Notes under the pieces: generated by a model
What the model was told of the DNA's origin: nothing
Databases searched by the model: none
The model's input: only the letters and a program-made list of their open reading frames with translations
In this document: positions 3,485 to 19,784 of the stretch, in pieces
Numbering within the stretch: position 1 is the stretch's first letter
Layout of the letters: the number at the start of each line of letters is the position of its first letter
Assembly: GCA_004138175.2 (NCBI GenBank)
Contig: RYFE02000037.1
Coordinates: 1-47,451, forward strand
DNA: 47,451 bases
Reading direction: 5' to 3'
Origin: Chloroflexales bacterium ZM16-3
Lineage (GTDB): Bacteria; Chloroflexota; Chloroflexia; Chloroflexales; Chloroflexaceae
Translations under genes and position numbers: made by a program

Positions 3485-3521
3485 ATCTGACCCTCCTTCA
3501 TGAGTACCTATCTGGACAGCT

Positions 3522-4748
3522 TCACGAGGGACATGCGGCCACAAGCATCTCGCGCTTTGCGAATACGTCCATCACCTGTAGTCGTTCGGTCGCGCGGCGC
3601 AGACGTACAAGCAGCGTCGCCCCATCGGCTTTCGACGAGATTGGCGTGAAGATATATTTGCTGTAGAGCCGTTGCCCCAGATGCGCCACGCCTTTCGCCG
3701 CCAGGGCCTCGCGGGTGGGTACGTCGGCGGCGGCCGGCGCGGGGTCGGCATAGGCAAAGCCGTAGAGAATGACCGGCTCACCCGCCTCATAGCGGTAACC
3801 AAACGCCAGTGCCTCGTAGGCGTGAACCGCCGCCAGCTCCGGCCCAACTGCTGTGGTGATGAACTCCGCGCCGCGCCGCGTCATGCGCGTCGGGTCTTCA
3901 AAGAAGCTGCGGCTGTACTGCTGGCAGGCCTGCGCGCCCAGAACTATCACCGCACTCCCGGCCGCACCCAGGGTCTCGGCAGCGACCAGTGCAGCTGGGT
4001 GGTCCAGAAATGTCTCGGCCGCGCCGGCGTCAGCGTCCAGCACACGGTACAGGTTCTCCCGCGCATCCGAGAGCAGCAGGAGGTGACGATCGGCCAGTAA
4101 AGCGACGGCCTGCTGCCCGTGCAGCGACACGATGCTTTGCGGCAGCAGCTCGGCCGTTCCCGAATAGATCGTCGTGCCACGATAGTCACTGGGCGCGAAG
4201 CCCAGATCCGCATACCACTGGAGCGACAGCCTGGGATCGCTGTCAGCGGGGAAGGCGATTGCGCAGACGCTACGTTGGTTGTCAAGATCAATGGTCGCAT
4301 CCCATAGCGCGTCCATCGTATCCCAGCCCCAATCGGCCTCCGGGGTGCGAATATTGGTCGCTCCGCAGAGCGAGAGCGCATCCCAGTCGAAGCTCATCGT
4401 TCTGAGAAATGCTAACCGCTCGCGCAGATCTGACTGACCGGTGATCGCGGTCTCCTTCAGGGCGGCCTTCACTACGGCCCAGTCAGTAAAGGCGACCCGG
4501 GTCGCATCAGCAGGCGTAAGCCGCAGGATCTGGCGCAGGTCGGCCGATGCGCTCGGTTGCGGCTCAGGCGTGCTCGTTGGCGGAAGGGGTGTTGGGCTCA
4601 GGGCAACGGTTGGTGTTACGGTTGGAATCACGATGGGGGTAGGAAGCGCCGCGACTGGCACAGTAGCACAGGCGCTGAGCAGCCCGATGCTGGCGATGAT
4701 GAGACCGCGAACGACATGTTGGAGCCAGTGGGATGGGCGGGATGGCAT
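3522..4748 (-). CDS. Putative lipoprotein of unknown function
   Basis: 408 aa. The N-terminus is a lipoprotein signal: basic start, hydrophobic stretch and lipobox LLSAC with the acceptor Cys near residue 27, then a Thr/Pro-rich spacer (PTVTPTVALSPTPLPPTST) typical of Chloroflexota surface lipoproteins, then a globular domain of about 330 residues with no recognised motif. It should be anchored on the outer face of the membrane. It lies on the same strand between hsdR (30 nt gap) and the nuclease-like gene (37 nt gap), an unexpected neighbour for a cytoplasmic restriction system. Whether it belongs functionally to the system is unknown. Confidence 0.75.
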   Translation of the reverse strand: MPSRPSHWLQHVVRGLIIASIGLLSACATVPVAALPTPIVIPTVTPTVALSPTPLPPTSTPEPQPSASADLRQILRLTPADATRVAFTDWAVVKAALKETAITGQSDLRERLAFLRTMSFDWDALSLCGATNIRTPEADWGWDTMDALWDATIDLDNQRSVCAIAFPADSDPRLSLQWYADLGFAPSDYRGTTIYSGTAELLPQSIVSLHGQQAVALLADRHLLLLSDARENLYRVLDADAGAAETFLDHPAALVAAETLGAAGSAVIVLGAQACQQYSRSFFEDPTRMTRRGAEFITTAVGPELAAVHAYEALAFGYRYEAGEPVILYGFAYADPAPAAADVPTREALAAKGVAHLGQRLYSKYIFTPISSKADGATLLVRLRRATERLQVMDVFAKREMLVAACPS

Positions 4749-4778
4749 ACGGGTATGCTCACTGTATCAGGTCAAGCG

Positions 4779-7535
4779 TTAAGCCGCCAGTTCCTCATTC
4801 AGCTCGTCCAAAAGCGCTTGCCAGCCATCGCCGAGGGCGCGCTGGGCACCGAGCGGCCCGCCTCGGCTGATGAAGGCCCCGCCGCTCAGGTCATCTGCGG
4901 CGATGCTCAGGTTCACGCCGATGTGGTTGGCGATCTGGTCGAGCCACCAGCGCTGCGCCGGCGTGAACAGCCTGCCCGCAGACTCCTGCTGGGCCAGCCA
5001 GCGCTCGTAGCGGGCGCGCACCTGCTCGGGGTAGGGCTCCAGCTCGGACTCGGGGCGCACCGCGTGGCGGATGAGCGCCACCAGGTCGGTCAGCACGCGC
5101 CGCGCGCCCGCGCCGCGCACCTTGTCCTGCTCCAGCTGGGCGTAGGCCCGCCAGAGCGCCTCGGTCGTCAGGCTCAGCGGCGGCTGCGCCAGGCGCTGGG
5201 CCAGCTCCTTGACCTGCGCGAAGGTCGGGCGCTGTGCGCCGTAGGGCTGGCTGTAGAGCAGCTGGATGGCCGTGATCTCGTCCTTGTGCTGCTCCAGGTA
5301 GGCCCGGAACGACTCCACCGTCGCGCGGGCCTTCTCGGTCGCGCCCGCGCTGAAGCCCGCCTCGCGCACCACATCCTTGCTCACATCATCGACGGCGATC
5401 TCGTCGCGCTGCTGAAACTCGATCAGTATCTTGCGCAGCTGCGGGATGTGGAAGGGCGTCACGGCGATCTCGGCCAGCTCCTCGGCGGCGGCGGCGCGCT
5501 GCTCGGGCGTCGGGTCGGCCCCGCCGGCGGCGGCGCGGGCGGCGGCATCAACGCGGTCGGGGTCAACGGCGTCGAGCAGGCCCTGCGCGATCTCGGTCAG
5601 GGTCGGCCCGCCGCTGGCCGCCGCGACGACATAGCGATCCTGCTCACTCAGCCCCTTGTTCAGCGTGGCCAGCCGCCCCGCCAGCGACTCCAGGTTCTCC
5701 GCTGAGGTGTCGCCCAGGGCGATCGCCTGGAGCAGCTTATCGAAGGGCACTGAGCGCTTATGCTCCAGGGTCTGGGTCTCGGCCTTGGGGTGATCGACCA
5801 CGCCGACGCAGTCCACGATCACAAAGCGGTCTTTGCGCCGGGCGTCGCCGCTCACCGCCTGCAGGTCGGTTGGGTTGATCACCCGCGTGCCCCGGCCGAG
5901 CATCTGCTCAAACAGCCCCGGCGACTTGACCAGGCGCAGGAAGATCAGGCACTCCAGCGGCTTGATGTCGGTCCCGGTGGCGATCATATCCACCGTCACG
6001 GCGATGCGCGGGTAGTAGCTGTTGCGGAAGGCCGCGATCAGCTCCTCGGGCTTCACGCCGGTCACGCGGTAGGTGATCTTCTGGCAGAAGGCGTTGCCCG
6101 CGCCAAACTCCTGGCGCACCAGGCGCACGATCTCCTCGGCGTGGCTGTCGTCCTTGGCGAAGATCAGGGTCTTGGGCACCTCGGTGCGGCCGGGGAAGAT
6201 CTCCGTAAAGAGCCGCTCGCGGAAGGTGCGGATGACGGTGCGGATCTGGTCCTCGGCCACCACAGCCCGGTCGAGGGCCTGCGGCGGGTAGACGAAGTCC
6301 TCATCGAGCAGCTCCAGGCGCTCGGCGCGGGTGCGGCGGTCGCGCCGGGTCAGCCACGAGGCCGCCTCGACCTGGCTGCCCTGCTCGGTGATCGCTGTGC
6401 GGATGCGGTAGACCTCGCCATCGACATTCACGCCGTCGAGCACAGCGCGCTGGCGGGTATATTCCATCACCAGGTTCTGCTGGAAGAAGCCCAGGGTCTG
6501 CTTGGAGGGCGTGGCGGTCAAGCCGATCAGGTGGGCGTCGAAGTACTCCAGCACCTGTCGCCAGAGGTGGTAGATCGAGCGGTGGCACTCGTCGGTGACA
6601 ATGATGTCGAAGTACTCGATCGGGATGCGCGGGTTGTAGTCGACCTGCTTGGGGTCGCGCCCGAAGGACTCGTCTTGCTCGAAGAGCGACTGCTCTTCCA
6701 GCTCGGGATCGAGCTCCTGACCACTGAGCATCGCGTAGAGCCGCTGGATGGTCGTGATACAGACCCGGCTGACATCGTCGAGGGTGTTCGACTGGAGGTG
6801 CTGGACGTTGTAGATCTCGGAGAACTTGCGGCCGTCGTCGGGGGTGACATACTGCTGGAACTCGCGCAGGGTCTGCCGCCCGAGGTTGCTGCGGTCGACC
6901 AAGAAGAGCACCCGGCGCGCCCCAGCGTGCTGGATGAGCCGGTAGATCGCGCTGACGGCGGTGAAGGTCTTGCCCGAGCCAGTTGCCATCTGGATGAGCG
7001 CGCGCGGCCGGTCGTCGGCCAGAGACTGCTCCAGGTTCTGGACGGCCTCGATCTGGGCCGGCCAGAGGCCGGTCGTGATCAAGGGCGGCAGATGGCGCAG
7101 GCGGCCGCGCAGGCTGACCGGCTCCTGTACCCAGATGCGCAGCGTCTCGGGGCGGTGGAAGGCGAAGACCCGCCGCGAGCGCGGCTCAGGGTCGCGCCCA
7201 TCGGTGAAGAAGGTCTCGACGCCGGTGCTCTCGTAGAGGAAGGGCATCGGGCTGCGCCACGGCTTGAGGTTCGGCGGCAGGCCAGCGCCATACTTCGCCG
7301 ACTGCGCCTCGACCCCGCTGAGTGGCACGCCGACTTTCTTGGCCTCAACCGCGCCGATCGCCTTGCGGTCAACGAACAGGAGGTAGTCAGCAAAGCCCGT
7401 GGCCAGGGGAAACTCGCGGATGGCGACGCCAACGCCAGCCAGCAGGTTAAGGTCGGCAACATCCTGCACGACCCAGCCAGCGGCAGTCAGGAGGCGGTCA
7501 ATCTCAAGGCGAGCGCGAGCCTCGGGGGTGGTCAT
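4779..7535 (-). CDS. hsdR: Type I restriction enzyme subunit HsdR (translocase/nuclease)
   Basis: 918 aa. The N-terminus holds the nuclease core (FADYLLFVDRKAIGAVEAKK, residues about 48-68, matching D...E-x-K). A superfamily 2 helicase follows: Walker A MATGSGKT near residue 185, DECH box VTDECHRSIY near 313, motif III GLTATPSK, motif V/VI around ATGTDIKPLECL and QMLGRGTRVI, and a helical C-terminal domain of the EcoEI-R kind. It drives ATP-dependent DNA translocation and cleavage when bound to unmethylated DNA with HsdM and HsdS. It is the first gene of the minus-strand operon. The ribosome-binding site is weak; the start is chosen because the sequence up to MTTPEARARLEID aligns with the usual N-terminus. 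Confidence 0.93.
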   Translation of the reverse strand: MTTPEARARLEIDRLLTAAGWVVQDVADLNLLAGVGVAIREFPLATGFADYLLFVDRKAIGAVEAKKVGVPLSGVEAQSAKYGAGLPPNLKPWRSPMPFLYESTGVETFFTDGRDPEPRSRRVFAFHRPETLRIWVQEPVSLRGRLRHLPPLITTGLWPAQIEAVQNLEQSLADDRPRALIQMATGSGKTFTAVSAIYRLIQHAGARRVLFLVDRSNLGRQTLREFQQYVTPDDGRKFSEIYNVQHLQSNTLDDVSRVCITTIQRLYAMLSGQELDPELEEQSLFEQDESFGRDPKQVDYNPRIPIEYFDIIVTDECHRSIYHLWRQVLEYFDAHLIGLTATPSKQTLGFFQQNLVMEYTRQRAVLDGVNVDGEVYRIRTAITEQGSQVEAASWLTRRDRRTRAERLELLDEDFVYPPQALDRAVVAEDQIRTVIRTFRERLFTEIFPGRTEVPKTLIFAKDDSHAEEIVRLVRQEFGAGNAFCQKITYRVTGVKPEELIAAFRNSYYPRIAVTVDMIATGTDIKPLECLIFLRLVKSPGLFEQMLGRGTRVINPTDLQAVSGDARRKDRFVIVDCVGVVDHPKAETQTLEHKRSVPFDKLLQAIALGDTSAENLESLAGRLATLNKGLSEQDRYVVAAASGGPTLTEIAQGLLDAVDPDRVDAAARAAAGGADPTPEQRAAAAEELAEIAVTPFHIPQLRKILIEFQQRDEIAVDDVSKDVVREAGFSAGATEKARATVESFRAYLEQHKDEITAIQLLYSQPYGAQRPTFAQVKELAQRLAQPPLSLTTEALWRAYAQLEQDKVRGAGARRVLTDLVALIRHAVRPESELEPYPEQVRARYERWLAQQESAGRLFTPAQRWWLDQIANHIGVNLSIAADDLSGGAFISRGGPLGAQRALGDGWQALLDELNEELAA

Positions 7536-7569
7536 AGGTACTCAGGTGCCGCGAACCCGATGGAGCAGC

Positions 7570-7667
7570 TTGCGCGGGGGATGCGACAATGCTACAATCG
7601 AGGCGCAGCGCGAACAATATGCGAAAGCAGAGCCCACTCTTCAGCTTGCCGGCGGGGAGTGGGTTTT
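7570..7667 (+). promoter_or_regulatory. Candidate promoter and hairpin; possible small RNA upstream of hsdR
   Basis: The 282-bp gap between hsdR and the recombinase gene contains on the plus strand TTGCGC (7570-7575), 17 bp, TACAAT (7593-7598). About 35 bp later comes a hairpin (CCCACTC 7633-7639 / GAGTGGG 7657-7663) followed by TTTT. That is the layout of a short terminated transcript of about 60 nt, antisense to the hsdR leader. On the minus strand a weak hsdR promoter (TTGTTC-17-TAGCAT) overlaps the same bases. The rest of the gap shows nothing convincing. Confidence 0.3.
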
Positions 7668-7817
7668 GCGCTATGTGCGCCAGTATAGCACGCGCATCAG
7701 GATATGTGCCAGTGAACGGATCTTCAGAAACGCCAGCATAGATGCCGTATAGGAGCGCCCTTGCTCCTTTCTCAGCGCTCTGCGAGAAGAACGTGAACAG
7801 CACCCGGCGATACATCG

Positions 7818-8948
7818 TTACTGGTACGCATTTAGCCCGAGCCCCTCAACCCGATCCGCCAGCCCATCAGCCGTCGGCTGGGTGTAGATCGCCGTGGTGT
7901 CGAGTGAGCTGTGGCCCAGCAGCCGGGCCAGCGCGACGAGATCACCGGGGTGCTCATCGAGGTAGCGCTGGGCGAAGGTGTGGCGCAGGTCGTGTGGGGT
8001 CGTCTCGGCGGGAACCAAGCCACGCGCCGCGCAGCTGCGCACCAAACCCGTGATCACCCGCCAGATACCCGAATCAGTGAGGTGCTTGCCCATCTGGCTC
8101 CTCCACACATGTTCGGAGGCATGCGCACCCTGGAGCTGTGGCCACGCCTGCGCCACCGCGCGTAGGGTCGGCTCAACCTCCAGGATTGGCCCGACATAGC
8201 TAGCCAGCGCGGTGCGCGCCGAGCCGTTGAGCGGCACCGTGCGCGCCTTGTCGCCCTTGCCAGCCCGCACCAGCAGGCTCCCGCTCTTCTCGCCGAAGGT
8301 GATGTCCCGCCAGCAGAGCGCGGCGCACTCGCCGATGCGGATGCCGGTCTGCAGCATCACCTGAACCAGCGCGTAGTCGCGGGCCGGGTGGCGCGAGCGC
8401 TGAGCCTCGCGCAGCAGCGCATTGACCGCCGTGTCGCTGAGCCCGCTCGGGGCATCGGGCGCGGTGGTGCGCACCAGCCGCAGGTGCGTGGCCGGGTTTG
8501 TATCAAGGTGGCCCTGCTCAGTCAGCCAGGCACACCAGGCCCGCAGCGCGCAGGCGTGGATGTTCACCGTGCTCGTCGCCGCAGTCTTCTGGAGCGCGCG
8601 CCGATAGCCTTGCAGGGCTATCGGCGTCACGTCACCGAGATCGAGCGGTCGGCGCTCCTCCGTCTCGTACCAGGCGAGGAACCGGCTGACGGCGGCGCGG
8701 TAGCGGGCGACCGTGCGCGGCGAGCGGTCGCGGCTGCCGAGATCGCTGAGCCAGGGGCTTACGAGATCAGCAAGTTCTGCCAGTTCGCCCTTACCTCCCA
8801 GTTTTGACGTATTCTCTTGTGCTCCTGTGCCTGTCGAGCACCTTCCTCCTACCTGACGATTGTGACCATAGAGACGGACATTCTTGAATGTCGGCTTGTT
8901 CGAGGAATTGGCCTCTGTCTGAAATGTGGCCAATTGAAATAAACGCAC
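7818..8948 (-). CDS. Tyrosine recombinase (XerC/D-like integrase or resolvase)
   Basis: The C-terminal catalytic domain has all expected residues: R in TGIRIGECAAL, K in GKGDKARTVPL, H-x-x-R in HDLRHTFAQ, H in LLGHSSLDTT and the nucleophile Y in AIYTQ. Before it is the SAM-like core-binding domain (SPRTVARYRAAVSRFLAWY). The start is uncertain: GTG 8948 is the nearest common start, giving 376 aa, but family length (about 300) and a GGAGGT 9 nt ahead of a CTG at 8783 suggest a shorter 321-aa product; an ATG at 9089 would overlap the divergent gene and is unlikely. It is divergent from the transposition operon. It could be the integrase of a tRNA-Glu island or the cointegrate resolvase of the transposon. 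Confidence 0.88.
   Translation of the reverse strand: MRLFQLATFQTEANSSNKPTFKNVRLYGHNRQVGGRCSTGTGAQENTSKLGGKGELAELADLVSPWLSDLGSRDRSPRTVARYRAAVSRFLAWYETEERRPLDLGDVTPIALQGYRRALQKTAATSTVNIHACALRAWCAWLTEQGHLDTNPATHLRLVRTTAPDAPSGLSDTAVNALLREAQRSRHPARDYALVQVMLQTGIRIGECAALCWRDITFGEKSGSLLVRAGKGDKARTVPLNGSARTALASYVGPILEVEPTLRAVAQAWPQLQGAHASEHVWRSQMGKHLTDSGIWRVITGLVRSCAARGLVPAETTPHDLRHTFAQRYLDEHPGDLVALARLLGHSSLDTTAIYTQPTADGLADRVEGLGLNAYQ
8877..8892. repeat. Short palindrome near the 5' end of the recombinase gene
   Basis: GACATTC-TT-GAATGTC is a 7+2+7 perfect inverted repeat. It lies between the plausible short start of the recombinase and the transposition operon. Tyrosine recombinases bind paired inverted half-sites with a short spacer; a 2-bp centre is shorter than the usual 6-8 bp, so it may instead be an operator. 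Confidence 0.3.
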
Positions 8949-8958
8949 AGGTATGCTA

Positions 8959-8976
8959 CAGTAAAAGTACTTCGCC
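8959..8976 (+). other. Probable left-end transposase-binding site
   Basis: The sequence CAGTAAAAGTACTTCGC matches the inward-read right-end repeats (GCAAAAAGTACTTCGC) at 14 of 16 positions and has the opposite orientation, as expected for terminal inverted repeats. A candidate terminus TGTGGCC lies at 8925-8931, with a weaker second site (TTGAAATAAAC) between, but the 5 bp before it (tgaaa) do not match the right-end flank (acaaa). The true left terminus is therefore unsettled. The site overlaps where a promoter for the 840-aa gene (TATAAC at 8995-9000) would be controlled, suggesting transposase autoregulation. Confidence 0.6.
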
Positions 8977-9003
8977 GTACTGATTGCAGGATCTCTATAA
9001 CGT

Positions 9004-11526
9004 ATGAACAACGATACGCTTCCCGCCATAGGTATGGCAGATGCGCCACTGCATTTGCCTGGTCTGGATGAAGAAGGCGAGGTGTACATCCGTCGGGCTT
9101 GGGCTTACTTCTATCCATTCCTTGTCGAAGATCTCGGCCTCGGCACTGATTGGAACGACCTCCCCGATGCGCAAACGCGCAGCGCACGCTTGGATCGCTT
9201 TACGGCTTTTGAGCGGAGCATTACGCGATCTGATGCTGCCTTACAGGCAGATCGCGAGCGTGGCCTGGAGATCTATCGGACAACCCATCTGCTCAAGATT
9301 GCAGAGGCGCTCGGTTTTGTTCAGCGGTGCCGCACGGCCGCTATTCGTAATCTGATTCGTCGTGGCCTACTCGTGCCTCCCCAGAAGTACAAAGATCTGA
9401 AATCGGCTCCAGCGATTGATGCCGTGGAATCCTGGTTTCTCTCCGCAGTAGCAAACCAAAGAACCGCGAAGCAGCAGTCTGCTCTGCTCGTTAAGCTAGG
9501 AGCTTGCCGCAATGAGCAGACGGCCAGCCGAGTCGTCGAGGCAATGAGGAAAGCCCAGGTACAGGCATCTGCATTGGCTCGTGGCGTCATCCTTGCGACC
9601 ATCGACCATGGCTGGGCTGGCATGCTTCTGCACTCTGGACACCCTTGTGCCGATGTCCTCCTGTTTCTCCAGTGCCACGCCAACCACATCGCGGATCTGA
9701 CTCCCCACCCTGAGCAGATCCTCGGTGAGCTGCGCGCCGACCTCATCGCGCTGCACAGCACCTTGTCCGCAGAGGTTGGGGCGAACCGCAGGAGTCTCTG
9801 GCAATTCAATCTGTTGCACCTCCCGCCAAGCAGCCCTCTGCGTGAGGCATTTCGCCAGCGATTTGGTGCTTCTGCCCAAGATGTGATCATTGCTCGCTTA
9901 GGAGAGCGCCGAGCCTGCACGCCTAGCGACGCTTCCTGTCTACAAGAAACCTTCCTGCAAGGCGGCCTACCGGCACTCATTGACTGGCGCTGCAACAAGA
10001 GCAGCCTTGCCTCAGACAAGAGCCTGGCAGTTCAGCGTATCCAACGCGCAGTCGCTATGCAGCTCTCGCCTCTTCCGTTGAGTGCGCAACAGCGCGCAAT
10101 CGACATCCTCCTCCATCTCCGCGACGCCTGTCTGGAGGTGGGATTTTTGCTCCCTATTGTCACCCTGATCAGTCAGCATCCGTCGAATAGATACCGCGCA
10201 CGTATTGGTCGCCGGGTCTGGTTTGGTGTCGGTGCGAGCATCAGCCGACGACAACGTAAATATCGGCGCAAGGGCAAGCAGCGTTGGCGGCAAGAGCACC
10301 GTGAAAGCCGCAAGCTTGATGGGCCGAGCCATGAGGATCTGCTCGCCACGGCCTTTGTTCGGCGTGCCAACCTTAAGAGTGAGACTGAAGGCCGGAACCT
10401 CATCCGTAGCTTCATCACCTATGGCGGCCCCGGTCTTTTCCTTCGTAGCGAGTGGGCAGATCTTTTTGATACCCGCTTCATCTCTTTCCTCTCCTTCTTC
10501 AAGCTTGGCCGACCCGATGGCGCGCTCAACTGGCAGTCAATGATGGCCCGATTGCAATCCTATGCGCAAGAGGAGGGCCTGACGGCACCGACATCTCAGG
10601 TCGCCAGGGCGATCTTCAACCGTATCCCCAAACCACCAAATTGGCACGGTGGCTACGGCGAAGATGTCGCCACCGTGCGCCAGCGATCAACGCTGGTGCT
10701 CCGGGCACCATGCCTCCACGAGGTCTGGGTAGCCCTCCAGGTACCCCAGCGCCTGTCAATTGCGTTGGTTGACGAGGCTGGCCACCCCCTTAGCCAATCG
10801 GCTGCGGTACTCATCTTCTTCGAGGAGCATATCGAGCGACCTGTAGGACTATGGGTTGATAGCGAGCCTGATCCGGGATTGGCGCTGCATCAGGCACTGT
10901 GGCATCCAGGCCATCCTAACTGGCCGCTGCGCGGTGCTCCAAGCGTACTCAAGATCCCCAGCTTGTTCTTGAAGCAGCGCCAGGGAGATATTGAACGAGC
11001 TGCTGATTGGATGTCGAGCGAGCTACAGCTACTCAACCGATTTCAGCACAGTCGTCAGCGCGAGAAGATGGCTAAGGCTGAAGACCTGATGAGTCGGCTT
11101 GTTGTGGATGGCACCAAGTTCCTCAGAAAGATCTTTGGCAAGCGCCCGATCACTCGTCGTGAGGCGGTGGATGGCCTGCTCGATTGGCTCACCACTGGCG
11201 GCGAGGAGGGCGGGAGATGCTTTCCAAACCACCGCACGCCAGAGCTGCCACCTGGCTCGATCACATATGGCCAGACCATCCTTCCAGGCTATGACCTACC
11301 CGTTGCAGGGTGGCTTCTGCCTGTCCTGGGGCAGGCCCAAACGCAGCGCAACCAGGTCGTCTATCGCGGCAATGTCTACACAGCTCCTGACTTCCAGGTC
11401 GAGCCAGGGCTGGCCGTAAACCTACGGGGAATGCCATTTCTTTACGCGGGCGTGCCAAACCACATTTTCGTCGAGGAGACGAATGGGCGCTTGCGTTGCC
11501 TTGTCGTACACGAACCACTGAGGTAG
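9004..11526 (+). CDS. Large TniA/TnsB-like protein with degenerate catalytic domain
   Basis: 840 aa. Residues 1 to about 500 match nothing I recognise and include a very basic patch (RRQRKYRRKGKQRWRQEHR near 420). From about 505 on it follows the layout of Mu/TniA-type transposases: helix-turn-helix-like part ending RIPKPPNWHGGYGED (near 540), RNase H-like core (EVWVALQVPQRLSIALVDEAG near 573, then PGLALHQALWHP...WPLRGAPSVLKIPSLF to about 652) and the C-terminal barrel (GNVYTAPDFQV near 788). The aspartate expected after the W in W-Q-x-D is absent, and the expected Y-T-D-N-G is LKIPS, so strand transfer chemistry looks lost. It is the first gene of the transposition operon. A structural, regulatory or target-selecting role is inference. 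Confidence 0.7.
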   Translation: MNNDTLPAIGMADAPLHLPGLDEEGEVYIRRAWAYFYPFLVEDLGLGTDWNDLPDAQTRSARLDRFTAFERSITRSDAALQADRERGLEIYRTTHLLKIAEALGFVQRCRTAAIRNLIRRGLLVPPQKYKDLKSAPAIDAVESWFLSAVANQRTAKQQSALLVKLGACRNEQTASRVVEAMRKAQVQASALARGVILATIDHGWAGMLLHSGHPCADVLLFLQCHANHIADLTPHPEQILGELRADLIALHSTLSAEVGANRRSLWQFNLLHLPPSSPLREAFRQRFGASAQDVIIARLGERRACTPSDASCLQETFLQGGLPALIDWRCNKSSLASDKSLAVQRIQRAVAMQLSPLPLSAQQRAIDILLHLRDACLEVGFLLPIVTLISQHPSNRYRARIGRRVWFGVGASISRRQRKYRRKGKQRWRQEHRESRKLDGPSHEDLLATAFVRRANLKSETEGRNLIRSFITYGGPGLFLRSEWADLFDTRFISFLSFFKLGRPDGALNWQSMMARLQSYAQEEGLTAPTSQVARAIFNRIPKPPNWHGGYGEDVATVRQRSTLVLRAPCLHEVWVALQVPQRLSIALVDEAGHPLSQSAAVLIFFEEHIERPVGLWVDSEPDPGLALHQALWHPGHPNWPLRGAPSVLKIPSLFLKQRQGDIERAADWMSSELQLLNRFQHSRQREKMAKAEDLMSRLVVDGTKFLRKIFGKRPITRREAVDGLLDWLTTGGEEGGRCFPNHRTPELPPGSITYGQTILPGYDLPVAGWLLPVLGQAQTQRNQVVYRGNVYTAPDFQVEPGLAVNLRGMPFLYAGVPNHIFVEETNGRLRCLVVHEPLR

Positions 11527-11541
11527 CGAGAGGAGAACGCT

Positions 11542-12036
11542 GTGGATGACCTGAGTCAGGACGATCTTTTTGAGGAAGCTGTGGACGAGCCGAGTCAGGA
11601 TGATCTCTTTGAGGACGATGTGGAGGATAGCGATGATGAGTTCGCAGACGAGGACGAGGATAGCAGTGACCACGATGGTGGTGATCAGGCTGAAAATGAC
11701 GAGCCGGTGGGCGCTGTTCGACCGCCGGTAGACTTGCAGTTAGCCCCCGACAGCTCGCTAGTTGACAAGCCCCTACGCTACATCCGCAAGCGACCAAGTA
11801 TGTTCGAGCCGCTCACGGGCAAAGACTGGGAGGGCCTCAAGTCTTCAGAGAAGAAGCACAAGCTTTGGGCATTACAGCGAGAGTGTTTGCGTAAAGAAGA
11901 GGCGATACTCAGTCTTATCAAACTCAGGAAGGCCGCGCCTCGTCAATTACTTCCCCCTGGTGTACTGGCTGATGCAAAGCAGCTGTTCGGCATTGCAGCG
12001 ACATGGAAAAAACAGGGAGTGCCAACTGGCCGGTGA
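11542..12036 (+). CDS. Small acidic protein of the transposition operon
   Basis: 164 aa, GTG start with GAGGAG 8 nt upstream. The first 60 residues are dominated by Asp/Glu with two related blocks (SQDDLFEEAVDEP and SQDDLFEDDVEDS). The C-terminal 90 residues are basic and helical (KDWEGLKSSEKKHKLWALQR), ending LPPGVLADAKQLFGIAATW. The acidic arm could mimic DNA or bind the basic patch of the preceding protein; this is inference. No relation to TnsA, TnsD/TniQ or TnsE is visible. It lies 15 nt after the 840-aa gene and 12 nt before the transposase gene, so it is surely co-transcribed. Confidence 0.7.
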   Translation: MDDLSQDDLFEEAVDEPSQDDLFEDDVEDSDDEFADEDEDSSDHDGGDQAENDEPVGAVRPPVDLQLAPDSSLVDKPLRYIRKRPSMFEPLTGKDWEGLKSSEKKHKLWALQRECLRKEEAILSLIKLRKAAPRQLLPPGVLADAKQLFGIAATWKKQGVPTGR

Positions 12037-12048
12037 ATTCAGATACTC

Positions 12049-13770
12049 ATGCGAGAATACCTGATCTATCGCCTTCAGTACCCTCTTGATCCAAGCGCCG
12101 AGTTCTTCATGCCGTTGCCGATGGGTCGGCCTCGGGGTCAGCAACTCACTGGCCAGCAGAAGAGTGTCATCCGGTACGCACTAGCGACGCGTGCTCGGCA
12201 GGTGAAGAGTGCTCTTGGTCGTGTCCGTGAGATTGACCTCCCATTCGAATACTGGGAGATCTGGAAGTTTGCCTCATCGGTCTGCCCAATGCCCTCGTAT
12301 CACACCGTGCGGCGCTATCTTCATAGCTTCCGTGAGGAGAACCCGGCGCTGTTCAAGCTTATGACCGAGGGCGATGATGCAGTCGAGCGCGATCTGCTGC
12401 TGAAGAAGCGCAACGATGTCAGCCGGCCAAATGAGCGCTGGCAGTCGGACGCGCGCGATTTGCCCTGGTATGTGCTGTATAACGGAAAGCCTCACCGCAT
12501 TGCCCTGATCGTCGTCTACGATGACTACAGTGGCTACATCATCTGGTGGCGCCTGGTGCTGAAAAAGGAGCAGGAAGACGCCGATTGGATCGCTACGCCC
12601 CGAGGGCGGCGACGCAGAAGCAACCTTAGTAAAAAGCGATCTCGCTCGTCAACCTTCACGGGGCTGGATGTCATCCAGCTGTACCTCACAGCTATGTACC
12701 GCACCGGTGTTCGGCCCGAGCGAATTTACACAGATAACGGCTCGCAGTTCATCGCCGCCGAGAAATACCTACCATTGCTCACGCGGGCGAACGAGCCGCC
12801 TATCGAGGTCTCACATACCCGTCCGGGTAAGCCCTGGGGTCGTGGCAAGATCGAGAACGGTTTGGGACAGCTCAACCGCTTGCTTAAGCGCCTTCCTGGA
12901 ACCTACAACAAGCGTGATCGTAAAAGCATCCGTGATGCCAGGCAGCATAAGGAGCTCTATCCATTCGAGGAGGCTGAGGCAGAACTGGCCAAGCACTTTA
13001 AGGAGTTGAATGAGCGTTCGCGAAAGAAAGCGCCGAGCCGTTTCGATGTCTGGAGAAGTGTCAAATCGTTGCCAGCGCCGCCGATTCGGCAGATGGCGCT
13101 CATTGAAGATCTCGCTGTCGAGCAGAAGAGCGTCACCGTCACTGGCTGGAGCGTCAACTTTAATGGCCAAGAATGGGAGCCAAAATCGATAGAGGGAAAG
13201 AATCGCCAGATCTATCGCCGCTGGATGGATGCGGCTGCGAGCGATGAGAAGGCTTGGCTTTGTGCAATCAAGCTGGATACTGGATTGAAGGTTGAGGTAC
13301 GCCTGGGTTCCCAGTGGATTGAGCTTGTGCTCAAATCAGAGCAGCAAGCCGACCAAGAGCACAACGCGGATCAGGCTCGGACGCTCAAAGACACACGCGA
13401 GGAGCGAGATGCCATTCTTGAGGCTGATGGCAAGATAATCATGGCGTTGACCAGCGGGAAAGAGCCTATTGCCGAGGCATCTTCAGGCGATTACACGGTG
13501 CCAGTCGTAGAACCGCCACGGGTTCAGCCGCAGCCAGAAGCCCAGGCACCGGTAGAGAGCGACACTCCTACCGACCAGGCTGACGCTCCAGGGACAGATC
13601 AGAAAGCTGCGGGAAAGCCTAAGAGGGGTGGGCGCAAGAAGACCACTAGCCCTGCCCCAGTAGCTCCTCAGCCCGGCTCAGTCGCTGATGAGGACGACGA
13701 GCTAACCGGTCTGCCCAATCTGGACGAATTGATCCAGAAGGCGAAGGCTCAGCTGCGAGGGAATGCCTGA
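12049..13770 (+). CDS. DDE transposase, TniA/TnsB family, catalytically intact
   Basis: 573 aa, close to the usual TniA length. Catalytic residues are visible as D134 (RWQSDARDL), D229 (YTDNGSQF) and E269 (GRGKIENGL), with the 39-residue D-E spacing typical of the family. The N-terminal 120 residues carry a helix-turn-helix region (PSYHTVRRYLHSF). An insert rich in Arg/Ser lies between the first two acidic residues (PRGRRRRSNLSKKRSRS). Residues 370-430 form the C-terminal barrel, followed by a long low-complexity Pro/Ala tail ending in a short helix (LPNLDELIQKAKAQL) that could contact the ATPase, as TnsB tails do. The stop overlaps the ATPase ATG by 1 nt. It cuts and joins transposon ends. 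Confidence 0.92.
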   Translation: MREYLIYRLQYPLDPSAEFFMPLPMGRPRGQQLTGQQKSVIRYALATRARQVKSALGRVREIDLPFEYWEIWKFASSVCPMPSYHTVRRYLHSFREENPALFKLMTEGDDAVERDLLLKKRNDVSRPNERWQSDARDLPWYVLYNGKPHRIALIVVYDDYSGYIIWWRLVLKKEQEDADWIATPRGRRRRSNLSKKRSRSSTFTGLDVIQLYLTAMYRTGVRPERIYTDNGSQFIAAEKYLPLLTRANEPPIEVSHTRPGKPWGRGKIENGLGQLNRLLKRLPGTYNKRDRKSIRDARQHKELYPFEEAEAELAKHFKELNERSRKKAPSRFDVWRSVKSLPAPPIRQMALIEDLAVEQKSVTVTGWSVNFNGQEWEPKSIEGKNRQIYRRWMDAAASDEKAWLCAIKLDTGLKVEVRLGSQWIELVLKSEQQADQEHNADQARTLKDTREERDAILEADGKIIMALTSGKEPIAEASSGDYTVPVVEPPRVQPQPEAQAPVESDTPTDQADAPGTDQKAAGKPKRGGRKKTTSPAPVAPQPGSVADEDDELTGLPNLDELIQKAKAQLRGNA

Positions 13771-14735
13771 TGACAACTTCAGAAATTGACCTGACCCAAT
13801 TCATCGAACTGGGCTTCCACAAAGAGCTTATGGCAAAGCTTGACGAAGCTGTCGCCCGGAAGCGCCTCTGCACCTTGCTTGGTTCGCTCGGTTGCGGTAA
13901 GACCTGGCTCCTTGACTACTGGCGGCGGTTGCGGACACGAGGGCCAGATCAGCCACGTGCTGGCGAGATTCTCTACATCCGTCTTCGCTCTGATAGCTCT
14001 CTAGCCATTCCTACGACGTGTCAGCTTTACTCGAAGCTCTGGCACGCTCTCCAGCTGCTTGAGCGCCCAGCCCATCTCCCTGCGAGGAGCAGCGGGGCAG
14101 ATGCAGATGAGGCTGACATCAAGATGTACAACGCGCGCCAGCTCCAGGAGCTTTTCCCCAAGCTGATCGAGAAGCTGAGCCAGCGCCATATCGTTGCGAT
14201 CATCATTGACAACGCACACTACCTTGATGTCACTGCCCTTGACTGGCTGCTCGATGCCCGCGCCTACTACGATGAGCAGCGCGGCCCAAGACCTGCCCGC
14301 GCTATCATCCTCGCCGGTCATCGTGACACACCAGCGGGTAAGGCGCTGCTCAGAAAGATTAGAGGGGATGACAAAGTAGAAGGCAATGCCGAGGCGAAGG
14401 CTGCGTGGAAAGGCTACGATATCGAGATGCAGCACCTGGGCCTGGCGAGCTTCTTTGAGGCGGTCAGCTGGGCAGTGCCGCGTAATTTGCAGGCGGAGTT
14501 CGCACCCGATGTGAACAAACAGCGCGAGATCCTGGATCTCTGGACGATAGCCGGAGGCGTTCGGAAGCAGGCCGAGGATAAGCGTTGGGTCGAGACTGCC
14601 GGCGTGCGCTGGTGGGGGTTTGAGGAGATGCTGGATGCGTTTGACGTTGAGCTCGGCCCGTGGGATGGCAAGCGCACGCGCCTGATCACGCAGGATGTGC
14701 TGGAGCGAGTGAAGAAGAAGTTAACCGCGTCGTGA
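13770..14735 (+). CDS. TnsC/TniB/MuB-like AAA+ ATPase
   Basis: 321 aa. Walker A is GSLGCGKT (residues 38-45) and the Walker B-like strand is VAIIIDNAHYL (D147, with Asn where Glu is common, as in several TniB/MuB-like proteins). The sensor region is ARAIILAGHRDTP. Such ATPases form filaments on DNA, choose the target and activate the DDE transposase. It is the last gene of the operon and translationally coupled to the transposase by TGATG. No TniQ/TnsD gene follows, which is unusual since that adaptor normally links ATPase and target. Confidence 0.88.
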   Translation: MTTSEIDLTQFIELGFHKELMAKLDEAVARKRLCTLLGSLGCGKTWLLDYWRRLRTRGPDQPRAGEILYIRLRSDSSLAIPTTCQLYSKLWHALQLLERPAHLPARSSGADADEADIKMYNARQLQELFPKLIEKLSQRHIVAIIIDNAHYLDVTALDWLLDARAYYDEQRGPRPARAIILAGHRDTPAGKALLRKIRGDDKVEGNAEAKAAWKGYDIEMQHLGLASFFEAVSWAVPRNLQAEFAPDVNKQREILDLWTIAGGVRKQAEDKRWVETAGVRWWGFEEMLDAFDVELGPWDGKRTRLITQDVLERVKKKLTAS

Positions 14736-14795
14736 AGACAGGAGTTGTTTCAGGCTTTCAGTCAATGAATTACTACTGAGTTCAGGTAATCAAGA
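14736..14795. other. Short gap between convergent genes
   Basis: Sixty bases between the ATPase gene and the oppositely oriented cargo module. No clear terminator hairpin or repeat is visible. The sequence turns AT-rich here and stays so to about 17500, unlike the GC-rich flanks. Confidence 0.4.
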
Positions 14796-15653
14796 TTATG
14801 CCGTCTTGAGTGGTTCAATACCATTAATTTCATTGCCTTGGTAGGTTAGATAATCAAGAAAGATCGGCCAGGTTCCTCGGTACTCTCGAAGCGAAATCTG
14901 GTCTTCAGTAACGATTCGTGGTGAATCTAGCAAAATATATTCACAGTTAATCTCCGCTTGTATCTCGTCAATCACGATATTAATGGCATCTGCTTCCTCG
15001 GCTGAGATTTGATCGCTCTGTATCATCAAGACAAGTTGCATTTGATAAGGCGGTTCTGCTGTCCAGGGCTGACTAACACGTACTTCATGTACCACACCGC
15101 TGAAAAGCATTAGGGTTTGAGGATGTTCTTCGTTAATCCGTGAGAGTACGCGCTCCAGCGGCTGTTGGAGTTGTTCAACTATGTCATCAGGTAGGGCTGG
15201 GCGATCATAACGGCGGCCAAGCCAGGTGATAAAACGTAATCGGCGCTCTAAGCTTGATGGCCAAGGGGCTGGTGTAAGCGAGAGCAGGATTTCTTTTTCT
15301 AACAAGACTCGATATTTAGCCTGAGCTACCAACCGCTGTTTCTCGTCGATAGTAAACCAACGTGCGCTTTTTGCATCAAGAAGCTTACGAATCAAAGATT
15401 CACTCGTAACCATGCATAAAAGCGCCTCTATATACGGCTCCTGACTTGACTTGATATCGCAGTCTTGTGAGATGACTATAAACCGCTCGCTGTTCTTAGG
15501 CGAGCGGTTGGCAGGGATTGGGCGTCTATCTTCAGCGTTCAATTTGTGATACATCACAGGAAGCGCTGGGGCAGCAAATACTGTGCCTTGCTGCCACCCC
15601 AGAGTCAAGAGTCGCTCCCCGACCGAGATTTCTTGAGGCTGATCCACCGTCAT
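14796..15653 (-). CDS. Hypothetical protein with ISQDCDI motif (cargo module gene 3)
   Basis: 285 aa, soluble. The clearest feature is ERFIVISQDCDIKSS near residues 57-71; Cys-Asp motifs of this form (S-x-D-C-D) occur in a scattered set of uncharacterised bacterial proteins. Other conserved-looking parts are LGRRYDRPALPDD and a C-terminal acidic helix region (ADAINIVIDEIQAEINCEYIL). The Cys-Asp pair could be catalytic or metal-binding, but no fold is recognised. It is the last gene of a three-gene minus-strand unit, 29 nt after the HTH gene, so a functional link with the HTH protein and the TIGR04255-like protein is likely. Confidence 0.65.
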   Translation of the reverse strand: MTVDQPQEISVGERLLTLGWQQGTVFAAPALPVMYHKLNAEDRRPIPANRSPKNSERFIVISQDCDIKSSQEPYIEALLCMVTSESLIRKLLDAKSARWFTIDEKQRLVAQAKYRVLLEKEILLSLTPAPWPSSLERRLRFITWLGRRYDRPALPDDIVEQLQQPLERVLSRINEEHPQTLMLFSGVVHEVRVSQPWTAEPPYQMQLVLMIQSDQISAEEADAINIVIDEIQAEINCEYILLDSPRIVTEDQISLREYRGTWPIFLDYLTYQGNEINGIEPLKTA

Positions 15654-15682
15654 CGATCCGCCATCCTTACCTGTTCGATACC

Positions 15683-16423
15683 TTATGCCTCAGACTCATC
15701 GTTTAGCAACTTTGTAAGCTCATCATCCTCGGGAGGGAGCGCCTCTGCTACATATTCTGGACGAACAAGATGTTTCGACGACGGGGAAGCACTTGTCCAA
15801 GGAGGAGGTGTTTTGACACGAGGAGAAGGCGTTGAAATTGCGAACAGCCGAGCACGGTTGAACTCACCATTCGCAAGCAGGCTAAAGGGTGTGTGACCTT
15901 CCTCGGTACGAGGGGAGTCCAACCATCTTGAAAGCTCTGCTGGTGAGTGATTGAGACGCTGGGCTCGTTCGAGGATCTCACGCACTGTAAACAATCGGCG
16001 TCGATTAAGATCGGTAATCTCTCCATTATTTAGCCAGGCATAGATCGTTGGCCGTGTAACTCCAAGCAACTGTGCAATACGGTTCATCGGCAATCGCGTT
16101 GCCTCTTTAATCCATTGCACAGCCTCACTATATGGCTGCAACCCTATATCTACCGGTTCCACCCTCGCCGTAAGCTGAACCATTGGTTGCCGGAGCAGAA
16201 CCCGCCCTAAGGCTATCGCTGTGCTCGGACGAAGACTCTTGAGCAGTGTACCACCATCGCTCGTAGCATCCTCAAAAGCCAGTGCGAGGTTTCGTGCAGC
16301 AGCCTCGATGCCAGATGGTAACTCATGTCCTTCGAGTAGTTGATGAGCGCCCATAGATGGCACACCAACTTCTCGTCGTACAAGGTTTGAGAGGGGGGAT
16401 GCGAATTTAGCGGTTGTCAACAC
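15683..16423 (-). CDS. HTH DNA-binding protein (cargo module gene 2)
   Basis: 246 aa from GTG 16423, chosen because GGAG lies 6 nt upstream; the longer frame would reach far into the preceding gene. It overlaps the end of the TIGR04255-like gene by 17 nt. A helix-turn-helix is clear near residues 110-135 (MNRIAQLLGVTRPTIYAWL), followed by a helical part (RRRLFTVREILERAQRL) as in Xre/MbcA-like antitoxins, and a Ser/Pro-rich C-terminal tail. A role as repressor of its own operon fits the paired 9-bp repeats at 17284-17304. Whether it is an antitoxin is inference. Confidence 0.75.
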   Translation of the reverse strand: MLTTAKFASPLSNLVRREVGVPSMGAHQLLEGHELPSGIEAAARNLALAFEDATSDGGTLLKSLRPSTAIALGRVLLRQPMVQLTARVEPVDIGLQPYSEAVQWIKEATRLPMNRIAQLLGVTRPTIYAWLNNGEITDLNRRRLFTVREILERAQRLNHSPAELSRWLDSPRTEEGHTPFSLLANGEFNRARLFAISTPSPRVKTPPPWTSASPSSKHLVRPEYVAEALPPEDDELTKLLNDESEA

Positions 16424-17246
16424 GACGCACTCCAAGTGTTTGCAGGTATTGATCCAAAACAAACCATCGGAACAGTCGATATACCACCCGATTATACTCT
16501 GCAACATGACGACAGATGTCGTCAGGGTTCATCGCCTGCTTGGCAGCAACAGGAAAGTCACGGAACACATCAATATCTAAGAGATAGAATGGTGTATTAG
16601 GAGCTAGTTGCCCTGTTGGAGGTGCGACCGTAGTACCGGTCGGAAACAGCCCATGGTGAATGTTAATTCCACGATTATGCGAATAACGCAACAAAAACTC
16701 TTGCACTGAAAGGTGAATATTACTTGAGAATTCCGATATTGCTAGAGATCCGAGCATCTCCTGTCGGATAATATCGCTCCACTCTAAGTTACTATCATCT
16801 TGTCGGATCTCGTCAATGTATCGTAACCCAATACGTATTAGTTGGCTCGGGCGAATATACTTAATCAGTGCGGCTAGAATAACTTCCAGACGACCAAGGA
16901 ACTCCTGAAAGTCGTTATAGGCACGAGTCTCAATAGCGAGAAAGTCATCTGCTAAGACAACAGTCCACTCATCACGCCCATCTGAGAAACGCCAATGTTG
17001 GGACTGAGCTTGTCCTTGTACGGCACCCTCAGCAGGTGCGACAACAAATTGTACTTCTGTTCCACGCTGAACTACTGGATAATGTTCACGTATCGCGTCT
17101 TGGAAAGAAGCAACATACGCTTGGTCTCCAATGCTGAGCACTCGGGTGAACCGAACTTGGCACAGTGTTAGAGCAAGAGGTGGGCGATCATAAATGATGT
17201 GCTGCACCTCAGGAAGGTTGAGTAGGTCGAGCAGTGACTGCTCCAT
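16407..17246 (-). CDS. TIGR04255-like protein (cargo module gene 1)
   Basis: 279 aa from ATG 17246, preceded by GAGGGAG 3 nt upstream; an ATG at 17285 has no such site. The layout fits the sporadically distributed TIGR04255 family: an opening PPLAL block (IIYDRPPLALTLCQVRF), a W-x-F-S strand (HWRFSDGRDEWTVVLADDF), an Y-x-x-F helix (YNDFQEFLGRLEVIL) and the signature RIGLRYIDEI near 155-164. The family function is unknown to me; its patchy distribution and common presence in mobile DNA suggest defence or toxin-antitoxin roles. It heads the cargo operon. Confidence 0.75.
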   Translation of the reverse strand: MEQSLLDLLNLPEVQHIIYDRPPLALTLCQVRFTRVLSIGDQAYVASFQDAIREHYPVVQRGTEVQFVVAPAEGAVQGQAQSQHWRFSDGRDEWTVVLADDFLAIETRAYNDFQEFLGRLEVILAALIKYIRPSQLIRIGLRYIDEIRQDDSNLEWSDIIRQEMLGSLAISEFSSNIHLSVQEFLLRYSHNRGINIHHGLFPTGTTVAPPTGQLAPNTPFYLLDIDVFRDFPVAAKQAMNPDDICRHVAEYNRVVYRLFRWFVLDQYLQTLGVRRVDNR

Positions 17247-17283
17247 AGCTCCCTCAGTGGCCAACCTGAAAGGATTAGCCCTC

Positions 17284-17304
17284 ACTTTACACGGGACTTT
17301 ACAC
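17284..17304. promoter_or_regulatory. Direct-repeat operator candidate
   Basis: Two perfect copies of ACTTTACAC (17284-17292 and 17296-17304) separated by GGG, a 12-bp pitch. They lie just downstream of the -10 box of the cargo promoter, where a bound repressor would block transcription. The HTH protein of the same operon is the natural candidate ligand. Confidence 0.55.
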
Positions 17305-17308
17305 TGTC

Positions 17309-17337
17309 ATTGTAACGGGTAGAGCGAATCAAGTCAA
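17309..17337 (-). promoter_or_regulatory. Promoter of the three-gene cargo module
   Basis: On the minus strand TTGACT (17332-17337), 17 bp, TACAAT (17309-17314). It lies 62 bp upstream of the first start codon. The boxes are identical to those of the cysK promoter, so the cargo is set for host sigma factor. Confidence 0.75.
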
Positions 17338-17418
17338 TGATATAAAATGTGAGCAGGATGAGATGTCCTTGCTCCGTAATCGTGTATGATAAAGTATGAG
17401 CCTACTGGGCAGTACAGG

Positions 17419-17429
17419 GAAAGTAGTTC
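17419..17429 (+). other. Possible additional transposase-binding half site
   Basis: GAAAGTAGTTC matches the core of the right-end repeats exactly but in the opposite orientation to the tandem array. It may be a chance match or a subterminal site. Confidence 0.3.
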
Positions 17430-17507
17430 ATGATAGACGATGATTGATATCAAATTAGAATTAAATCAATGCTTAAAATGCATAAATACTCTGCTACTAA
17501 ATACAAC

Positions 17508-17536
17508 GGGGGCGGCTCTTGATGAGAGCCGCCCCC
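17508..17536. terminator. Strong hairpin inside the transposon right end
   Basis: Perfect 12-bp stem (GGGGGCGGCTCT / AGAGCCGCCCCC) with loop TGATG. There is no T-run on either side. It may insulate the cargo promoter from transcription entering from the tRNA side. Confidence 0.5.
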
Positions 17537-17564
17537 GCTGGTGTGGGCTTGTGGTGCTACCTAT

Positions 17565-17649
17565 GCGAAGTACTTTTTGCTCAAGATGCGAAGTACTTTC
17601 TGCTCAGGGTACGAACTACTTTCTGCTCAGGGTACGAACTACTTTCTGC
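17565..17649 (-). repeat. Transposon right end: four 23-bp transposase-site repeats
   Basis: Four head-to-tail units with a 23-bp period: GCGAAGTACTTTTTGCTCAA.., GCGAAGTACTTTCTGCTCAG.., ACGAACTACTTTCTGCTCAG.. and a truncated last ACGAACTACTTTCTGC. Read inward from the tRNA side each contains AAAGTA(C/G)TTCG. Tn7-type right ends carry a similar dense array of 22-bp TnsB sites. Confidence 0.75.
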
Positions 17650-17652
17650 AAA

Positions 17653-17658
17653 CCCACA
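17653..17658 (-). mobile_element. Right terminus of the Tn7-like transposon
   Basis: Read inward the end is TGTGGGTTTGCAGAAAGTAG. Tn7 itself starts TGTGGGCGGACA, so the TGTGGG hexamer and the transposase site starting a few bases inside fit a Tn7-type end. The 5 bp outside are ACAAA (17659-17663), then 6 bp remain to the CCA end of tRNA-Glu. An alternative terminus 3 bp outward (TGTTGTGGG) is possible. Confidence 0.6.
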
Positions 17659-17669
17659 ACAAAAATCGG

Positions 17670-17746
17670 TGGTACCCCCAGCGGGATTCGAACCCGCGAT
17701 CTTCACCTTGAAAGGGTGACGTCCTAGGCCGCTAGACTATGGGGGC
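17670..17746 (-). tRNA. tRNA-Glu (anticodon UUC)
   Basis: Cloverleaf read on the minus strand: acceptor GCCCCCA / TGGGGGT (G-U at 1-72), D arm GTCT/GGAC, anticodon stem TCACC/GGTGA with loop CTTTCAA (anticodon TTC), 5-nt variable loop, T arm GCGGG-TTCGAAT-CCCGC, discriminator A and an encoded CCA at 17672-17670. 77 nt including CCA. The gene is intact; its 3' end faces the transposon and island. Confidence 0.96.
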
Positions 17747-19624: not shown

Positions 19625-19784
19625 GATGGCGTTCATCCCTCTACTACATCCTCGGGTACTACCGCAACACACACATCAGGGCGCGCCTCGGGCTGTGCGC
19701 CCACGATGTATGGGAGAGGCTGATCTTTGAATGCCTCCCCTGCTGTATCACCATGGCTGGCAGACAGAAGGTAGAGGGGGGCAC

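Follow-up and report, generated by a model that had tools for sequence, protein, structure and literature searches.

Type V-K has been described as the only CRISPR-associated transposon (CAST) with a single effector, and as natively cyanobacterial, TniQ-mediated like the other CASTs and without a recombinase (PMC11406308). Its insertions are reported to lie 46–82 nt from the protospacer-adjacent motif to the transposon end (PMC9938897), and homing by delocalised CRISPR RNAs has been described for it (PMC11656645, PMC9938897). Here we analyze a stretch of 47,451 nt from Chloroflexales bacterium ZM16-3 (contig RYFE02000037.1, hereafter the window) in which an operon encodes a TnsB-like transposase, a TnsC-like ATPase and an 840-aa protein that we refer to as BIG. 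Judged from its sequence, this operon is rather probably the transposition half of a CAST unlike type V-K, with BIG in the place of TniQ, and it is very probable that the elements carrying it home by RNA guides similar to those of V-K. We are evenly divided on BIG as the substitute for TniQ, and give about even weight to the wider reading, in which a dead transposase would form a new class of adaptor between TnsC and a large type V effector that is itself dead, in a Chloroflexota lineage of CASTs that does without TniQ and has its own tyrosine resolvase.

With the V-K elements ShCAST and AnCAST these elements appear to share TnsB and TnsC without TnsA, a RuvC-dead single type V effector with a regulator gene beside it, an array together with a separate truncated-repeat guide matching a tRNA gene, and insertion likewise tens of bp from the protospacer. 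They differ in that no TniQ was found, the dead transposase BIG is present, IscB lies beside the effector, and the effectors measure 947–1294 aa. A tyrosine recombinase is present where V-K has none, and the hosts are Chloroflexota where V-K is reported from cyanobacteria only (PMC11406308), while the end that faces the tRNA gene is the right one here and the left one in V-K (PMC9938897).

CRISPR-equipped transposons without TniQ have also been described, namely type I-A with Mu-like transposons and the telomeric I-E5, which have class 1 effectors and, in the account given there, no dead TnsB-like subunit (PMC12669027). In Tn6022, a recombination enzyme without catalytic activity is reported to have been recruited to choose targets (PMC10293859); this enzyme, TnsF, is a dead tyrosine recombinase, whereas BIG appears to be a dead transposase of the DDE type and its element has guides. 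The Tn5053/Tn402 family likewise has a TnsB/TnsC-like pair without TnsA and a separate recombinase for cointegrates (PMC11406308). It differs from the present elements in using TniQ and in having no CRISPR parts. The resolvase of that family is a serine enzyme. Literature searches, by titles and abstract openings, returned no description of an element like the one analyzed here; a 2025 classification mentions that other inactivated type V subtypes have been repurposed by transposons, and a relative of this lineage may already be listed there. If our reading is true, it adds a second single-effector CAST branch that uses another adaptor and brings its own recombinase, a point of relevance to the cointegrate problem. 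It also makes testable what an adaptor must do to link a TnsC-like ATPase to a protein that binds its target by an RNA guide, and shows a route by which an inactive transposase paralogue can gain function.

The operon and its dead transposase

An initial annotation, made from the letters of the window, named three genes of note, and all three lie where it placed them on the plus strand: BIG (9004–11526; followed through the open reading frame (ORF) list, alignments, an AlphaFold2 model and fold searches), the 573-aa transposase (12049–13770) and the 321-aa ATPase (13770–14735). It overlooked a 164-aa acidic ORF between the first two (11542–12036, plus strand), for which no Pfam or NCBIfam family was found and no match among the ORFs of nine relative loci searched. 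By its sequence the 573-aa protein is a DDE transposase with intact catalytic residues: the proposed residues D134, D229 and E269 are invariant in six of six aligned transposases (the window counted), and Pfam rve matches at 2e-8. The 321-aa protein matches Pfam AAA_22 (1e-8) and, weakly, PADLOC TnsC_0_V-K (0.0058). A DDE transposase and an AAA+ regulator were found within one element at eight loci.

BIG has no credible Pfam or NCBIfam family and no PDB sequence match, and no TniQ domain was seen in it, the sole Pfam match at E 1 being a weak NAD_binding_10 (E 0.1). Its structure was modelled with AlphaFold2 from a 4-row alignment (mean pLDDT 63.7), and in Foldseek the best match was TnsB of ShCAST (7svw_B, E 5e-7 over 443 columns), followed by other TnsB chains and by MuA at E 2e-3; this is the comparison with TnsB and MuA that the annotation had proposed. 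Residues 569–713 match retroviral integrase cores with Z ~10 (top row 123 residues, 3.6 Å), which places an RNase H-like fold close to residues 570–660, where the annotation had expected one, and the model adds a C-terminal barrel of low confidence. From the integrase-core alignment we estimated the first catalytic position as residue 578. Around that position the first acid is present in none of seven aligned BIG sequences (the window counted), and the second is found in one of seven, locus L016, which has D there (our loci, genomes and contigs are numbered with L, G and C).

The N-terminal residues 1–546, modelled alone, are all helical (pLDDT 77.5), and a PDB fold search with them gave nothing above noise (best match E 2.8), excluding no particular fold, in keeping with the earlier description of about 500 residues of no recognised fold. 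A weak match links TnsB residues 32–97 to BIG 224–328 (Z 4.5, 66 residues, 3.6 Å). On the predicted structure, then, BIG is a TnsB-like RNase H fold with a barrel, without the catalytic acids, joined to ~546 helical residues, and the proposed pairing of an active and an inactive transposase within one operon holds, with the acids intact in the 573-aa protein and lost in BIG.

A search for BIG in a draw of 400 genomes of the phylum found seven genomes at E <= 1e-3, four of them at E <= 1.1e-47, and three of these four have two loci each. The matches in the remaining genomes (G255, G021 and G028; E 2e-5 to 1e-3) were set aside, there being no transposase, ATPase or recombinase match within 20 kb. 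Among 158 genomes of the class, a profile search picked out 11 that have a BIG match, several of these matches being fragments. BIG, TnsB and TnsC occur in this order at eight loci of Chloroflexales and Herpetosiphonaceae (the window, L015, L016, L018, L019, L020, L025 and L048), so that, as the annotation supposed, BIG homologues mostly accompany a transposase; a further locus has the trio with a shortened BIG (L049) and another holds broken pieces (L052). No relative was found in viral contigs and none of BIG in plasmids, where the transposase matched 49 records, none covering 80% of it, with 25–31% identity among the 20 matches listed.

No TniQ (PF06527, E 0.01) was found in G238, which has three BIG loci, or in G288, and no TnsA among the window proteins scanned, which cover part of the element's ORFs; these searches agree with the annotation, which had seen neither. 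With no TniQ found in these two genomes, BIG is the only conserved extra transposition protein found and the best candidate for the job of TniQ, a role of target-selecting adaptor that the annotation had already proposed for it.

Element ends, targets and guides

The annotation recognised the transposase pair and its co-travelling relatives, and missed the CRISPR-type half of the system, with guides and effector, because that half lies mostly outside the window. The window holds the right-hand part of a transposon (1–17658), of which the left part is C41:84727–90020 in the window's own genome, G000, as indicated by left-end sites, an empty site and a break in hsdM. C41 terminates inside hsdM, its tail matching EcoKI M residues 462–513 (E 5e-6), and window 1–51 (minus strand, 17 aa) is taken by us as the 5' end of the same gene, judging by the N-termini of HsdM proteins. 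The empty site is G238:C119, in which 198 bp, 97% identical to the C41 left flank, run straight into the window's tRNA-Glu flank; beyond these 198 bp it matches a C41 stretch ~640 bp away, and the flank differs there. With a gap of ~1.3 kb estimated from EcoKI M, the hsdM break and the empty site give an element of ~24 kb.

At the right end, four tandem ~23-bp repeats resembling transposase sites (17565–17651, plus strand) lead to a TG terminus 11 nt before the first site (17648–17658, minus strand), with the same spacing at the left terminus in C41. A target-site duplication follows (17659–17663, ACAAA; left copy TCAAA, four of five bases identical), and then a tRNA-Glu(TTC) gene whose 3' end points toward the element (17670–17746, minus strand). 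Two to four tandem ~22-bp repeats lie between the ATPase gene and the flank in all eight elements, differing by element with partial likeness only between L018 and L019, and in seven elements our alignment of the sites places the TG terminus 11 nt before the first; in all seven it is this transposase-side end that faces the target. A tRNA gene, again with its 3' end toward the element, adjoins the right end in six of the eight, while L048 borders a NUDIX-like gene at its 3' end and the insertion of L016 falls inside a helicase-like ORF; both genes were named by eye from their translations. Left-end sites in inverted orientation could be located for the window (in C41), for L048 (~33 kb away in the same 360-kb contig) and for L020 (contig C31), and none for L015 in the stretches searched. 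Defined ends, repeated transposase-like sites and a short duplication were thus all found, the duplication in one element.

Shortly ahead of BIG, the core of the end sites occurs once more in inverted orientation (8963–8975, minus strand), possibly as an autoregulatory site; an element ending just upstream of BIG at this site was considered and dropped once the left end had been located in C41. An empty-site test for L048 failed, as the contig tested, G000:C40 of the window's own species, has ~60 bp resembling an element end in the equivalent place. This sequence (L122, G000:C40:187810 onward), past the NUDIX-like gene that L048 occupies in G238, could be either a remnant or another insertion.

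Guides matching the flank at a nearly fixed distance, with 17–20 of 20 nt identical at 53–60 bp from the right end, were found in six of the eight elements. The window's guide, which lies inside the window's own element (C41:86268–86289), matches 21 of 22 nt of a protospacer in the tRNA-Glu gene (17692–17713, minus strand) whose 5' base is 55 bp from the right end; a third match in the genome (<=3 mismatches) falls at another tRNA-Glu copy. The other guides are those of L018 (20/20, 54 bp; in C39 after a Cas12-like gene), L019 (20/20, 56 bp; 14 kb upstream, found by a flank-match scan), L020 (20/22, 60 bp; in C31 after another Cas12-like gene, found by a whole-genome search that gave two further 3-mismatch matches), L025 (19/22, 53 bp; just before BIG) and L048 (20/22, 55 bp; non-tRNA target, inside its own element, spotted by eye and then measured). 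The spacing was first seen in L019 and L025, and the stretch searched for the window, L018 and L020 was set from it. In a control scan that took a 20-mer from each of the 241 offsets within 260 nt of flank, the guide was the top match in the loci searched for six of seven elements, with ties for the window and L048 outside those elements; no guide was found for the seventh, L015.

All six guides are preceded by GAGG or GAAG, which resemble the 3' ends of CRISPR repeats at L096 (..GGAGG), L098 (..GGAAG) and L019 (..GGAGG). Four adjoin a large RuvC-dead Cas12-like gene, directly after its stop codon at L096, L019, L115 and L112; one adjoins a truncated copy and one lies just before BIG. A second guide-like stretch, reading like a tRNA T-arm, follows a second scaffold copy at L096 (~15630). 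A conserved 87-bp block (79%) before BIG in L025 (8036–8116) and L050 ends in a tRNA-Glu-like guide and contains a hairpin that appears to covary between both copies.

Effector, recombinase and a possible mechanism

Large ORFs lie near the guides at L096 (1178 aa), L019 (1126 aa), L115 (1115 aa) and L112 (1294 aa), and a homologous ORF of 947 aa at L098 has no known guide nearby. Judged by the RuvC motifs, all five have H for D in RuvC-I and no D in RuvC-III and keep the E of RuvC-II. The label Cas12-like is based on matches to PADLOC Cas12f (L096, 1.6e-6; L019, 1.9e-5) and Pfam TNB (L096, 1.5e-4; L115, 6.7e-4). No Cas12k match was listed, weak Cas12f models being the best, in libraries whose inclusion of Cas12k models is unconfirmed. 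L048 carries such a nuclease-inactive effector as an intact ORF between both ends, with the RuvC-I and RuvC-III acids lost. A Cas12-like profile matched four of 400 phylum genomes, in seemingly the same draw, and these are the four with strong BIG matches. CRISPR arrays are present at L096, L098 and L019, with a two-repeat array at L112, and regulator genes lie beside the effectors of L096, L098, L115 and L112. The pairing of IscB with a RuvC-dead Cas12-like protein recurs at L096 (G000:C39), L098/L112 (G238:C95), L019 (G302:C6) and L115 (G302:C31).

The window's recombinase is XerC-like (7818–9089, minus strand, with a true start probably at ~8.8 kb), is 95% identical in amino acids to that of L048, and has what we take to be the R, HxxR, H and Y of the tyrosine recombinase motif. 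A tyrosine recombinase lies beside BIG in six of the eight loci, ~6 kb upstream in L015 and, as a partial copy, ~7 kb upstream in L025. The recombinases of L015, L016 and L018 are ~92% identical in DNA and their targets differ, as do BIG (27–29% identical) and the transposase (16–26%), and the recombinase is therefore unlikely to choose the target. It is, by analogy, the probable resolvase of cointegrates, a role that fits because Tn7-like elements without TnsA are described as usually carrying a serine or tyrosine resolvase, V-K being without one (PMC11406308). In L015, a 3'-end fragment of the recombinase (9853–9945, 85% to the intact copy at 4089–4181) stands right before the 18-bp motif described below and BIG; fragment and intact copy are separated by a repetitive cargo gene of 1677 aa, an arrangement that suggests module shuffling at that point.

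Taken together, these features suggest a mechanism in which a dead Cas12-like protein, with a guide RNA encoded outside the array, would bind a tRNA gene or the 3' end of another gene. BIG, as a duplicated TnsB-like transposase devoid of catalytic acids and fused to a ~546-residue helical domain, would couple this effector to the TnsC-like ATPase instead of TniQ. The TnsB-like enzyme, acting on the tandem sites at both ends, would then join the element ~55 bp from the 5' base of the protospacer with a ~5-bp duplication. Transposition is probably replicative, since no TnsA was seen, and the tyrosine recombinase would resolve the cointegrate. The ends, the target, the guide matches with their spacing, the empty site and the missing catalytic residues of both effector and BIG can be read from the sequence; we infer the roles of BIG as adaptor, of the Cas12-like protein rather than IscB as guide reader and of the recombinase as resolvase from sequence and context.

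Several observations weigh against this reading. Support for the CAST model consists of sequence and predicted structure, and contact of BIG with effector or ATPase is putative. TniQ occurs in G302 (C2) and G419 (C136), with a sub-threshold match in G000 (C24), on contigs that hold none of the described element pieces, and at L017 no transposase match was seen within 20 kb of its 1200-aa BIG. A single element, L048, is contained whole in one contig; the left-end sites of L018 are weak (2–3 mismatches) and in another contig, C39, and for L019 and L025 none were found in the stretches searched. With left ends missing or weak and elements split over contigs, it is only likely that the guides of L018 and L020 belong to the same element. 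No guide was found for L015 in G238 or for L016 in the stretches searched, and the loci in the control scan were picked once the L018 and L020 guides were known. The Cas12f and TNB matches are weak and below curated cut-offs, so that the label leans on the arrays as well; L098 matches neither, and the 1294-aa ORF of L112 (4674–8558, plus strand), searched with Pfam alone, has one match, PBP_like_2 (4.2e-10, residues 934–1118), either a fused binding domain or a misassignment. Of its own effector the window's element keeps a 393-aa fragment, the contigs searched for L025/L050 yielded no Cas12-like gene, and the Cas12-like profile was built from three of the four genomes it matched, which leaves G288 and the 396 negatives as independent.

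Other explanations place BIG or the guides differently. BIG could be a non-catalytic subunit of a heteromeric transpososome, the kind of complex that the annotation also suggested, binding one end or shaping the TnsB oligomer, while the effector contacts TnsC directly. We regard this as possible, though doubtful: the C-terminal half of BIG is a TnsB-like core with a barrel, the weak match to TnsB 32–97 hints at a kept DNA-binding domain, and CAST I-D is reported to be able to act without TniQ (PMC11656645), but the long conserved N-terminal domain of BIG is left unexplained. That IscB, or a truncated relative with RRXRR, reads the guide instead of the Cas12-like protein we consider improbable. 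IscB does adjoin the Cas12-like ORF in L096, L098, L019, L115 and L112, and what adjoins BIG in L025/L050 is only a shortened protein with RRXRR (272/296 aa); however, a repeat-like end precedes the guide, as it does in type V, and in L096, L019, L115 and L112 the guide stands just past the stop codon of the Cas12-like gene. IscB guides, moreover, lie 5' of their scaffold, and the IscB of L096, L098, L100/L112 and L019 is full, with RRXRR and HNH by Pfam, so that it keeps its HNH domain. In the window's element both the IscB and the Cas12-like genes are truncated.

Still less probable is that BIG itself selects tRNA genes as a TnsD-like protein, the guide matches being relics. Six of eight elements do sit at tRNA genes, and L018 and L019, with the common target tRNA-Arg(TCG), are the closest pair in BIG (44% identical) and transposase (55%), while L015, L016 and L018 differ in targets together with BIG and transposase despite their similar recombinases. 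Against it, six elements have guide matches whose spacing hardly varies, one of them at a non-tRNA target. Finally, tRNA 3' ends are classic integrase sites, and in seven of eight loci a recombinase that looks intact adjoins BIG or lies upstream of it, which could mean that this enzyme integrates an island at the tRNA with the DDE operon as passenger. We give this hardly any credence: site arrays in inverted orientation and a ~5-bp duplication mark the ends, and elements with different targets have nearly identical recombinases. A scan of the loci searched also showed no direct att-type repeat of the 3' end of the tRNA gene, its one 20-nt repeat (L019) being the guide; an inverted match of 19/22 that it gave at window 4620 was judged to be chance. 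The preferred reading remains that of RNA-guided homing with BIG as a candidate adaptor.

Shared motif, cargo and other observations

An 18-bp motif at 8862–8879 (plus strand) recurs at the IscB/Cas12-like cluster (C41 88531–88547), with variants, similar or identical per element or genome, at L097 (8531–8548), L018/L096, L048/L100 and L019. It is more likely a shared operator (compare CvkR in V-K) or a recombinase site, since similar variants of it precede BIG and also stand at the effector cluster, which has a regulator gene nearby. The motif was also considered as the 5' part of an omega-RNA with an upstream guide, and the upstream bases gave no convincing target match. At gathering score, Rfam showed no family except tRNA in the window, L096, L097, L098, L100, L101, L016 and L048, and the Rfam scans gave one chance match.

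The cargo of the window's element includes, all on the minus strand, the type I restriction subunits HsdS (specificity; 611–2311) and HsdR (4779–7535) and, between ATPase and right end (14796–17285), a 285-aa ORF, a helix-turn-helix protein (15683–16507) and a TIGR04255 protein (16407–17285). Defence-type cargo is abundant near L025 964–5259, L116 9237–15491 and L048/L100, including a BrxL-like 1431-aa protein (by Pfam) and large methylase/ATPase and further restriction genes (by eye). Outside the element, the window encodes at 19731–25883 a 2050-aa protein with 15 LPGTY units in tandem.

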